Source of the DNA: Modicisalibacter luteus DSM 23508 | GTDB lineage: Bacteria > Pseudomonadota > Gammaproteobacteria > Pseudomonadales > Halomonadaceae | Direction of reading: 5' to 3' | Length of the DNA: 64,000 bases | Assembly (NCBI RefSeq): GCF_000378505.1 | Contig: NZ_KB899992.1 | Span: 62,001 to 126,000 of the forward strand | Part shown: piece after piece, positions 21,748 through 24,943 of the stretch | How the letters are laid out: the number at the start of each line of letters is the position of its first letter | Numbering within the stretch: the stretch's first letter is position 1 | The notes under the pieces: model-generated | What the model saw: only the letters and a program-made list of their open reading frames with translations | Database searches by the model: none | What the model was told of the DNA's origin: nothing | Translations under genes and position numbers: made by a program

Positions 21748-23139
21748 CTAGGCTGGTGGAAGCCAGACGATACGCGCCATACCCAGCATCAACGAGGCAA
21801 GGCCCAGGGGAATCCAGGGCGGCCGTGCCGGAGGCTGTACCGCAAAGAAGTGGTAGCTGACGCGAATGAAGGCGCAGAGCGTCAGGCCTAGCAGGGCACC
21901 TCCCACCAAACCGCTGAACCAAGCAATGTCGAGCAACAGGCAAGCCAGACCCATGGCTAGGCTGACAAGAATGGCGATCCAATAGGCAATAGCTCGAAAA
22001 CGTGACGCCAATGTTTCCGAGACATAGGCCGCCATTAGCCCGCTCAGCACAACCGAAGCTGAGATCAGTTCGCTGGGATAGTCTATCGTCGAGGTGTCGA
22101 GGGTTGTGCCTAAAGACAACTGTCTGAACAGGGCATTGGCCAGCGTGATGGCGCCGAGGCCTCCCAGTAAATGCAGCAGAGCGGCAATCTGCCCACGCAG
22201 CAGTAGCCAGAGTATCCATGGCAAAGCCAGTACCGTTCTACCCAGCACATCGCCGGCCTCGGCCAGCCACGCTGCCAACTGAAGCAGCAGGGGGCCGGAG
22301 AAGGCATCAATGAATCCCTGCAGTTGATGGTCGATGGTCAGAGGGGGGCCTTGATCCAGCGCCCATAAGGTCCAACCGCTCAGTGCTGTCAGGCTGATCA
22401 GCAACAGGACCAGTGAAGCCAGGGGAAACTCGCCGCCCGGATAGGAGAGGCGCAGAGTGTGCCAGAGCCGCCGCCGCCAGCCGCTCTGACTGGCGAAGTA
22501 GGCGAGGCGACGATAGATTCTACCTTCACGTGCCAACTGGTGGCGCAGCAGGGAAAAGGCTAGTGCGAGTACGATAACAATGGCGGCCAGCAGGATAAGC
22601 CAACGATCGCTGCCCGGAGGCAGGGTCAAAAACTGTTGCCAGGTGCGCCCCAGCAGGTAGCCGGGAAGCACATAGGCCGGTGCCCATATTAGAGCAGAGC
22701 CTACATTGGACCAGGCGAAGGTGATCGGCGACATGCGCATCATTCCCGCGATCATCGGCACAATGGGGCGCACCGGACCGACGAAACGCCCGATGAGTAC
22801 CGACAATATGCCATAGCGCTGAAAGAAGCGTGCACCTCGGGACAACCACTCGGGATGCTGCTTGAACGGCCAGAGAGCCGGAATACGCTCACGCTGGGTG
22901 TAGCCGAGCAGGAAGCTGGCGCCATCGCCGATTACAGCGCCGACAAAGGCAAAGAGCAGGACCAGGGGTATCGACAGGTCGTAATGACCGGCCAGCGAGG
23001 CAGCAGCAGTCATCAGGACGACACCGGGAATTACCAGGCCGACCACCGCCAAGGACTCGGTCAGTGCTATCACGAGAATGACGACAAGCAGCCAGCCTGG
23101 CGAGGGAGCCAGGCCATAAAGCCAGCTCCCGAGATTCAA
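21748..23139 (-). CDS. DedA family protein fused to a degenerate PAP2-like domain
   Basis: An integral membrane protein of about 463 residues. Residues 1-200 form a DedA/VTT domain with the characteristic IGRFVGPVRPIVPMIAGMMRM at 117-136 and FAWSNVGSALIWAPAYVLPGY; DedA proteins act in lipid scrambling and envelope homeostasis. Residues 235-440 resemble a PAP2 (lipid phosphate phosphatase) domain in length and helix pattern, but the catalytic motifs are gone: the usual P-S-G-H region is DYPSELIS (353-360), and the S-R-x5-H-x3-D region is LLLDIAWFSGLVGG (401-414), lacking Arg, His and Asp. The start is probably TTG 23139, overlapping the upstream stop (TTGA) with GGAG eight bases ahead. It is last in a three-gene operon. 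Confidence 0.75.
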   Translation of the reverse strand: MNLGSWLYGLAPSPGWLLVVILVIALTESLAVVGLVIPGVVLMTAAASLAGHYDLSIPLVLLFAFVGAVIGDGASFLLGYTQRERIPALWPFKQHPEWLSRGARFFQRYGILSVLIGRFVGPVRPIVPMIAGMMRMSPITFAWSNVGSALIWAPAYVLPGYLLGRTWQQFLTLPPGSDRWLILLAAIVIVLALAFSLLRHQLAREGRIYRRLAYFASQSGWRRRLWHTLRLSYPGGEFPLASLVLLLISLTALSGWTLWALDQGPPLTIDHQLQGFIDAFSGPLLLQLAAWLAEAGDVLGRTVLALPWILWLLLRGQIAALLHLLGGLGAITLANALFRQLSLGTTLDTSTIDYPSELISASVVLSGLMAAYVSETLASRFRAIAYWIAILVSLAMGLACLLLDIAWFSGLVGGALLGLTLCAFIRVSYHFFAVQPPARPPWIPLGLASLMLGMARIVWLPPA

Positions 23140-24083
23140 GGCGAGGGCTCCATCAGTTTGAGGCCGGCCGTGAGCAGCCGCTGTTCGAAATGAGTTGTGG
23201 TTTCTCCCGGATGAAGATAGCAAGCATGGATCCGGGCCTGTATCGCGCCAGTCTCGGCAAATACCTCACGGTTCAGGGCGCGCATCACACGGTCGCGGAC
23301 AATAAGGGCGCCAGCCTCACCGGTATCCGGCAGCAGCAGCCAGAACAGGGTGGGCTGGTGCCGGCCGAGCAGGTCGTGGTGACGACAGCTCTCACGGATG
23401 GTCTGGCATACCCGAGCCAATAGCGTATGCAGCAGGACAGGACCGAACTGTTCATCTGCCATTTCCAGTTGTGGCAGGTGAATTACCAGCGCCGCCATGG
23501 GACGACGCATGGCGCGGGCGCGATCGACTTCCGCGGTGAGTCGTTCGGTAATGACTTTACGGGAAAGCGCATCACATTGAGCGTCGCTGGGCTCTGTGGC
23601 GCGCAGCATCGCTGCACGACGGTGTCGCATCCAACCGGGCAGCGTGCCAAAGCCGACCAGGGCGAGGTAATACAGACCTGTCTCGAATAGCGGTAGGTCG
23701 GTGCCTAGCAGGGCTAGCCAGACGGGCATCAGCGTCAGATTCAGGAGCAGCGCCGAGCCCAGAGGCAGCAGTAGAAGCGTGAGCACCGGCGGCAGGCCCA
23801 TCCACAGTAGGGCGAGCTCCTGACGGGGGAGTTCCATGGCAATCAGCAGATAACAGCTGATCAGGGCCAGATAGGCTGAAAGGTGGCGGTAGTCGTGGTT
23901 GGCGAAGCGCAGGAAGATGGCACCTGACAGCAGCACGGACATCGAGGCGGGCACCAGGATGTCATTGTAGGCACCCATTAGGTAATGCCAGATCGCATAA
24001 GCGGCCAGCAAGACGGCGCCAATGGCATAAACCAGTACGAACAGAAACGATGGCCAGCGTTGGCCTTTCGTACGCGGCTTCAC
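23136..24083 (-). CDS. Membrane protein with degenerate GGDEF-like domain
   Basis: The 315-residue product has five or six membrane helices in the first 150 residues and a cytoplasmic domain from about 170 with GGDEF spacing: LSRKVITERLTAEVDRARAM, a central ALVIHLPQLEMADEQFG, and HHDLLGRHQPTLFWLLLPDTG. The last aligns with the diguanylate cyclase signature region, but the R-Y-G-G-D-E-F core reads RHQPTLF (241-247), so metal and GTP binding are not expected. It overlaps the upstream gene by ATGA (24080-24083) and the downstream one by TTGA. I infer a membrane sensor or scaffold rather than a cyclase. Confidence 0.65.
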   Translation of the reverse strand: MKPRTKGQRWPSFLFVLVYAIGAVLLAAYAIWHYLMGAYNDILVPASMSVLLSGAIFLRFANHDYRHLSAYLALISCYLLIAMELPRQELALLWMGLPPVLTLLLLPLGSALLLNLTLMPVWLALLGTDLPLFETGLYYLALVGFGTLPGWMRHRRAAMLRATEPSDAQCDALSRKVITERLTAEVDRARAMRRPMAALVIHLPQLEMADEQFGPVLLHTLLARVCQTIRESCRHHDLLGRHQPTLFWLLLPDTGEAGALIVRDRVMRALNREVFAETGAIQARIHACYLHPGETTTHFEQRLLTAGLKLMEPSP

Positions 24084-24943
24084 TTGTTTTCCTCAAGAAC
24101 GATGACCGGCTTTTCCTGACGTTCCAGGGCGGCCAGTTGGGTTTCCAGCGACAATGCAGGGGCGAGCGTAATGAATCGCGCCTGAAAGGGAGATGGCAGG
24201 CTGGCGAGCAGCGTATTCCGGCGCAGGGTCGCTTCCTTGGCATTACGATTGATAAGCAGCGCGGCCAGAGTTTGTCCGTCGGCCTGATAACAGGACTCGT
24301 AACTGCGGGTACTGGCGATCAATGCCTCGGCCAGTGCCGGTTGGCAATTGCTTGGGGAGCGTAGCAGTAATAGTTCCCCGTGACTGCCCTCACGCTCACA
24401 GCGCATCGTTTCCAGGTTCAGGTCGGATTTTAGCTGGGCGCCCGACCAAAGCAGTAGGTGTTCCAGCAATCGGGTACGGCTCGATACGCCGCGCCAGAGC
24501 GTCAGTAGGCCCAGATGGCGTGCCAAGCCCAGCAGCATCAGGGCGACCAGCAGGAGACCGGTGAGGATGCTCTCTGCCGTCATGCCGGTAAGATGCGACA
24601 CCTGCCACAGGCATGAGGCAGCCAGAGCGCTGTGCAACAGCATCAGTAACACCGGTTGCGGCATGGCGATGACTGCGGCCCATCCCCATAGCCACATGGC
24701 ATGCCGTTCAGGGGAGAGCCATAGCAGCGACGTCAGCAGTAGCGCGAGGAAGGTGGGGGCGGCGGTATCGGGCAGGGCGGGTAGCCGACGATAGCCCACG
24801 CCGACACTGCCTATGCCTAGGCCGCACAAGATCAGGACCACCCGGGACAGGGTATCCTGGGGTGTCAGGGCCAGAAGCAGTATGGCCGTGGCCGTAAGCA
24901 GCAATGTGAGCCGATAGAGCCCTTCTTTGAACTTGCTCTCCAT
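24080..24943 (-). CDS. Membrane protein, possible distant GGDEF-like C-terminus
   Basis: The 287-residue product has a short basic start ([12 protein letters not shown]), six hydrophobic helices between about 12 and 150 and a soluble C-terminal region of about 130 residues. That region ([28 protein letters not shown], then [26 protein letters not shown]) follows the strand-helix order of a shortened nucleotidyl-cyclase-like fold, but no GGDEF motif exists; the relation is weak and partly argued from the neighbour. First gene of a tightly overlapping three-gene operon, divergent from proA. No function can be assigned. Confidence 0.55.

Follow-up and report, generated by a model that had tools for sequence, protein, structure and literature searches.

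Within a 64,000-nucleotide stretch of the genome of Modicisalibacter luteus DSM 23508 (contig NZ_KB899992.1, positions 62,001 to 126,000; hereafter the window), three open frames, g1, g2 and g3, completely occupy the minus strand from position 21748 to 24943. Judging from their sequences, the products of g1 and g2 probably form a membrane-bound receptor pair for cyclic di-guanosine monophosphate (c-di-GMP), of the PelD kind. Both consist of a membrane part and a GGDEF fold, both have lost the active site of diguanylate cyclases, and g2 has kept a complete inhibitory site (I-site). The conserved residues strongly suggest c-di-GMP as the ligand, and a heterodimer is the likely arrangement of the pair.

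All features described here lie on the minus strand, in window coordinates. g1 (24080-24943; 287 residues, ATG start) is a membrane protein with a pseudo-GGDEF domain, g2 (23136-24083; 315 residues, GTG start) is a membrane protein whose GGDEF domain retains only the I-site, and g3 (21748-23139; 463 residues, TTG start) is a fusion of DedA and PAP2 domains. An earlier, sequence-only reading had described three overlapping genes joined by ATGA and TTGA overlaps. The three overlapping frames are indeed present, as is the TTGA shared by the g2 stop and the g3 start (23136-23139), but the g1 stop and the g2 start meet in GTGA instead (24080-24083). In loci of the Halomonadaceae, with start codons chosen by script, two genomes present twice and loci L037 and L068 excluded, 50 of 59 g1/g2 junctions overlap, and the overlap is of exactly four bases at 34 of 47 g2/g3 junctions. 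These overlaps exceed chance. The family alignments used below comprise 61 rows for g1 and g2 and 59 for g3, each with genomes G049 and G013 included twice and with L001-L004 removed as duplicates. The g2 frame is split in two in L037 and L068, for each of which one piece was kept among the rows.

Two paralogues with a GGDEF fold

The C-terminal region of g2 (residues 174-291; 23211-23564) is a GGDEF homologue by its match to PF00990 (37.5 bits, cut-off 23.8), with a degenerate QPTLF (residues 243-247; 23343-23357) at the position of the GG(D/E)EF signature. g1 gave no Pfam or NCBIfam match up to an E value of 1. Its AlphaFold model, in contrast to its mean predicted local distance difference test score (pLDDT) of 59.9 over the whole chain, reached 67-78 per ten-residue block over residues 171-280, and the modelled C-terminal domain (residues 153-283; 24095-24487) has the GGDEF fold when aligned with a solved GGDEF domain (VIA-align Z 13.5, root-mean-square deviation 2.5, 127 residues). 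Solved PleD complexes with (p)ppGpp (guanosine tetra- and pentaphosphate) and with c-di-GMP are among the structural neighbours of this model, which indicates a shared fold only. The models of g1 and g2 were built from alignments of the window and L001-L003, four sequences in all. Confidence is low in the membrane part of the g1 model, which leaves the number of membrane helices, about six, unsure. The MASE6 membrane sensor (PF20966) matched weakly (15.1 bits, cut-off 27.4).

The profiles of g1 and g2 align over 261 columns (98.1%, E 8.6e-14), and in an unrooted tree of 64 rows from four families each copy lies on its own side of a branch (support 99/92 and 99/94). From this alignment and this tree, g1 and g2 are paralogues that combine a membrane part with a GGDEF fold and are related to membrane-bound diguanylate cyclases. 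The two GGDEF-like regions of the sequence-only reading, and with them the relation to the GGDEF fold on which it had staked its proposal, were thus found in both proteins: in g2 by PF00990, in g1 by the model and the profile. Since each side of the branch holds rows from four families, the duplication most likely predates the split of at least that many. When the tree is drawn with a midpoint root, the two g1 rows of family f20 fall on the opposite side (support 82/46); if the root lay on a different branch, g1 and g2 would not be each other's closest kin. The iterated g1 profile absorbed g2-like rows in its later rounds (at least L039), and those cross-matches were not used as evidence.

We also observed that the proteins of loci L084 and L085, which have an intact GGEEF signature, match nearly the whole g2 profile and may be related to the protein from which the pair descended.

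Loss of the cyclase site and retention of the I-site

The I-site of cyclases binds a dimer of c-di-GMP, which clamps two GGDEF domains together. In PleD one subunit contributes R359, D362 and R390 to it, and the second subunit R313 (PMC7288161, PMC12943098). PleD residues were mapped to g2 through equal-length aligned stretches of PleD and the g2 profile. R313, R359, D362 and R390 correspond to R188 (23520-23522; the secondary I-site), to R234 and D237 of an RxxD motif with the sequence RHHD (23373-23384), and to R265 (23289-23291). Each is kept in all 61 family rows; in the 11 g2 rows from other families the first three are likewise kept throughout, and the R390 equivalent in nine (two have K). 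Counting rows that have a letter, seven columns of g2 are invariant, namely L106, E185, R188, R234, D237, R265 and R302. Four of these seven belong to the I-site, and the columns adjoining the invariant ones vary by up to 3.4 bits.

The active site shows the reverse. Nine catalytic positions (D327, F331, K332, N335, D344, G368, G369, E370 and E371 of PleD) are kept in only 0-8 of the 61 g2 rows each; K442 and R446 lie outside the mapping. In g1 the GG(D/E)EF signature is absent from all 60 rows with letters there (the sixty-first, L037, is a fragment). By their sequences, both proteins have lost the cyclase active site: neither has the signature and the metal- and GTP-binding residues expected of an active diguanylate cyclase, while g2 combines, as degenerate GGDEF receptors with I-site effector function do, a dead active site with an intact RxxD and supporting arginines. 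The remaining 30 GGDEF domains found in the window's genome served as a control, and there the nine catalytic residues are present in 25-29, RxxD in 14 and all four I-site residues in three. A lost active site with a complete I-site, the opposite of what the other domains show, is the pattern expected of a receptor derived from a cyclase. In all three pairs compared within the window's clade, no part of the operon has a lower ratio of nonsynonymous to synonymous divergence (dN/dS) than the g2 domain, at 0.010-0.021. g1 retains the secondary arginine, R181, in 61 of 61 family rows and the R390 equivalent, R241, in 57 (one row has a gap); the secondary arginine need not occupy the R313 position (PMC8041772).

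Two of the other GGDEF domains of this genome, L188 (G000:C5:276577-277026; signature SVDEW) and L189 (G000:C20:47930-48379; signature STDEW), look degenerate and are very similar to each other.

Taken as a mechanism, the RxxD and the two further arginines of g2 would bind c-di-GMP, and g1 and g2 would form a heterodimer, which is the most likely arrangement since g1 overlaps g2 and is found wherever g2 is found. Binding would then lock or release both cytoplasmic domains, and the membrane helices would relay the change to a partner. The nearest candidate is the co-encoded g3, which comes first because at most family junctions it begins within the last bases of g2, and which can be proposed only tentatively because the pair and g3 are each also found without the other. 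The sequence-only reading had suggested sensing rather than catalysis. For g1 and g2 the lost catalytic site and the kept I-site argue well for this, and c-di-GMP can now be named as the putative ligand.

Distribution of the pair and the DedA-PAP2 protein

In 151 genomes of the Halomonadaceae, profile searches (E≤1e-40 for g2, E≤1e-15 for g1) placed both genes of the pair in the same 130 genomes. Of the 21 without the pair, 20 were named by both searches and the last, G138, follows by elimination; a search with the single g1 sequence had reached 99 genomes, compared with 130 for the profile. g3 was found in 132 genomes at E≤1e-3, the weakest best match being 6.9e-48. The pair occurs with g3 in 112 genomes and alone in 18, g3 occurs alone in 20, and one genome (G089, 88% complete) has neither. 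The loci with the pair but without g3 include L039-L045 (genera labelled g3 and g5 in our set, labels unrelated to the gene names) and L054-L057 (genus labelled g11). In G008 and G136 g2 is broken into two frames.

In 44 family loci including the window, whichever of the three genes are present adjoin proA. Most of these loci lie between mpl-ubiX(-lysE) and proA-nadD-rsfS-rlmH-mrdA-rodA, with a few lacking some of the markers; all of these neighbours carry gene names that we presume from their protein sequences. Synteny extends over the entire region, so that adjacency by itself is little proof, and it is the pattern of loss across genomes that marks the pair as the unit. The survey of gene neighbourhoods thus shows the pair to be conserved together and the trio to be mostly conserved but separable, and for the joint function that the sequence-only reading had assigned to all three proteins the data argue weakly.

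The g2 profile led to 15 loci outside the family, of which 11 have the pair beside proA (six from family f38, three from f20 and two from f7); the other four (L081, L084, L085 and L088), whose GGEEF signature is intact and which have no proA within reach, were set aside. In all five loci of f20 and f7 the pair is followed by a full-length g3, and a DedA-only protein is in reach of the pair in three of the six f38 loci. Twelve loci of other families were fetched for g3; proA adjoins g3 in four of them and lies within 4 kb of it in another two, and the pair is not between g3 and proA. As g3 lies near proA in other families without the pair, the pair may have joined an older gene at a fixed place. 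With up to seven best candidates scored per genome, a class-wide search matched at E≤1e-35 in at least one of 293 genomes, namely the window's own, and a search of the order at 1e-30 in at least 35 of 293. Two family genomes with g3 and without the pair stand out by their strong GGDEF domains, of which G017 has none and G018 one (loci L052 and L053).

The DedA/VTT domain of g3 (residues 37-161 by Pfam; 22657-23031) matches PF09335 with 66.1 bits (cut-off 33.9), and its PAP2 domain (residues 266-440; 21820-22344) falls below the cut-off, with 11.8 bits against 27.2. The motifs of PAP2 phosphatases are KX6RP, PSGH and SRX5HX3D. All five core residues of this active site are intact in 56 of the 59 family rows and none is present in the window's species and two sister species, three of the 14 genomes of the genus examined. 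Among 130 g3 rows of the order, the PAP2 site is intact in 100 and not in 14 (two of which keep four of the five residues), while 16 are DedA-only or short; in distant rows, these calls are less sure for reasons of alignment. It seems that the site has been lost several times in the order while the DedA part was kept. The rows with such losses, which make up 14 of the 114 long g3 homologues, include L099, L101 and L118. The inactivated PAP2 domain is still under purifying selection, its dN/dS in the three species being 0.10-0.15 compared with 0.07-0.25 for intact PAP2 in eight control pairs. Elsewhere in the window's genome, four further VTT domains and two PAP2 domains exceed the cut-offs, and the loss may for this reason have been tolerable.

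In alignment with Escherichia coli YqjA and YabI, R118 and R124 of the DedA domain and E28, just N-terminal to it, correspond to R130, R136 and E39 of YqjA, which together with D51 have been named essential for YghB (PMC10127716). At the D51 position g3 has V40 and E. coli YabI has T. By its sequence the DedA half appears not to have been inactivated; g3 is a probable transporter of a carrier lipid or phospholipid with an originally active phosphatase half. The claim that all three proteins lack catalytic residues thus applies to g1, g2 and, in this species, the PAP2 half, but not to the DedA half. Instead of three dead enzymes, the operon has in g3 one half that does not appear dead and another that lost its site in one small clade and is nevertheless selected.

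Alternative readings and known systems

A number of observations weigh against a c-di-GMP receptor and are gathered here. The hydrophobic catalytic positions L347 and F372 are kept in 51 and 53 of the 61 g2 rows and L294 in two, so that these three further published positions fit no simple loss. In the other families, the E370 position of g2 holds D or E in 4 of 11 rows and the E371 position in 3. E185 and R302 are as invariant as the I-site and have no known role, and RxxD and the R390 position have been described as conserved across GGDEF members generally (PMC7288161), which makes a structural role of these residues possible. In the Halomonadaceae only 16 of 61 g1 rows retain the RxxD arginine and 57 have E in place of D, so that g1 has no full I-site of its own; in the other families its RxxD is kept in 11 of 11 rows and R181 in 10, but the R390 equivalent is R in only four. 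In pairs from beyond the clade of the window, other parts are sometimes more constrained than g2 (whose dN/dS is 0.163 in L032/L033, for example), and the AlphaFold model of g2, with a mean pLDDT of 46.4, was too poor to be used. The pair is present in genomes with few strong GGDEF domains (G145 with two, G074 and G084 with three each), and some genomes without it carry many, with up to 22 best matches scored per genome. Finally, g3 as a target is weakened by the 18 genomes that have the pair without g3 and the 20 with the converse.

If the conserved R and D residues were structural, g1 and g2 could be a membrane scaffold that binds no ligand and in which the GGDEF fold serves for dimerisation only, for instance to organise g3 or cell-wall proteins. 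E185-R188 in g2 and E178-R181 in g1 do not vary in either paralogue and might form a salt bridge, and most family rows of g1 have an incomplete I-site. We regard such a scaffold as improbable, since the seven columns of g2 that never vary include each of the four contacts to c-di-GMP, next to columns that vary by up to 3.4 bits, and the complete set is rare in the other GGDEF domains of the genome. The pair could instead bind another nucleotide, such as (p)ppGpp or GTP, in what is left of the active site. The PleD-(p)ppGpp complexes among the neighbours of the g1 model would fit this, although they reflect the common fold, and g2 has lost the equivalents of L294, D327, F331, K332, N335 and D344 (kept in 0-6 of 61 rows), which makes this reading very unlikely. 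Still less credible is that the operon consists of pseudogenes on their way out. Active sites have been lost in g1, g2 and, here, PAP2, the PAP2 loss is recurrent, and g2 is split in two genomes. Yet no g2 match listed has an internal stop, and within the window's clade every part has a dN/dS of 0.01-0.21, with the dead PAP2 domain in the range of intact ones. Decay was rejected on these ratios (12 pairs, Nei-Gojobori), which are rough when taken singly because synonymous divergence reaches 1.5; all parts of the control pair L013/L014 lie at 0.13-0.28.

A further reading extends the c-di-GMP receptor pair and is compatible with it: the trio would be one complex in which the pair regulates g3, and c-di-GMP would control the recycling of a lipid carrier. 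The four-base g2/g3 overlap at most junctions, the presence of all three genes in 112 of the 151 family genomes and the company of pair and full-length g3 in the proA loci of f20 and f7 as well speak for such a complex. The genomes that have g3 or the pair alone speak against it, as do the 12 g3 loci of other families without the pair beside them, and the extension remains doubtful. More unlikely again is its most specific form, an asymmetric heterodimer with a split I-site, made of RxxD and R265 from g2 and R181 from g1, that would gate the DedA-PAP2 transporter. It would fit the invariance of R181 in the family and the loss of RxxD from most g1 rows of the Halomonadaceae, set against its retention in all 11 rows of three other families: two similar I-sites appear to have given rise to a complete site and a partial one, a pattern that suggests a heterodimer with a single split c-di-GMP pocket.

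Should the receptor pair be real, a membrane pair at a fixed position in most of one family would be added to the c-di-GMP receptors that can be recognised by sequence, and it would show how paralogous enzymes turn into a two-part receptor. It could also mark a meeting point of c-di-GMP and envelope lipid traffic. Going by the papers listed in the literature searches, gating through a split site would be the first link between c-di-GMP and carrier-lipid recycling. Among those listed papers there was no paralogous membrane pair of this build at such a locus, and a search for the combination of GGDEF, DedA and Halomonas found none.

Among known systems, P. aeruginosa PA4011 resembles g3 in its DedA-PAP2 domain order and its length (437 residues compared with 463; PMC12893004) and is a candidate orthologue; g3 of the window differs in having lost the PAP2 active site. 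Deletion of PA4011 lowered the emergence of colistin resistance, and the protein is described as not the main flippase and as elusive in function (PMC12893004). With the DedA undecaprenyl-phosphate flippases of COG0586, g3 shares the equivalents of E39, R130 and R136 (PMC10127716), three of the four residues of the set, and differs at D51, as YabI does. DgcY of Halomonas hydrothermalis and the proteins of the L084 type share with g2 a membrane part followed by one GGDEF domain (PMC12421958). DgcY is active and has no I-site, while g2 has only the I-site (PMC12421958); L084 matches positions 11-303 of the 313 of the g2 profile but has a GGEEF signature. Degenerate GGDEF receptors as such are already known, as PelD binds c-di-GMP through the RxxD of a degenerate GGDEF domain (PMC7112168). 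PelD of Pseudomonas aeruginosa and Bacillus cereus is, like g2, a membrane protein with a GGDEF fold, a dead active site, and RxxD with a further arginine; PelD requires these residues to bind its ligand. It differs from g2 in its GAF domain, for which the scan of the operon proteins gave no match up to an E value of 1, and in belonging to the pel operon, whereas g2 carries its GGDEF domain directly on the membrane part, has a paralogous partner in g1 and lies beside proA.

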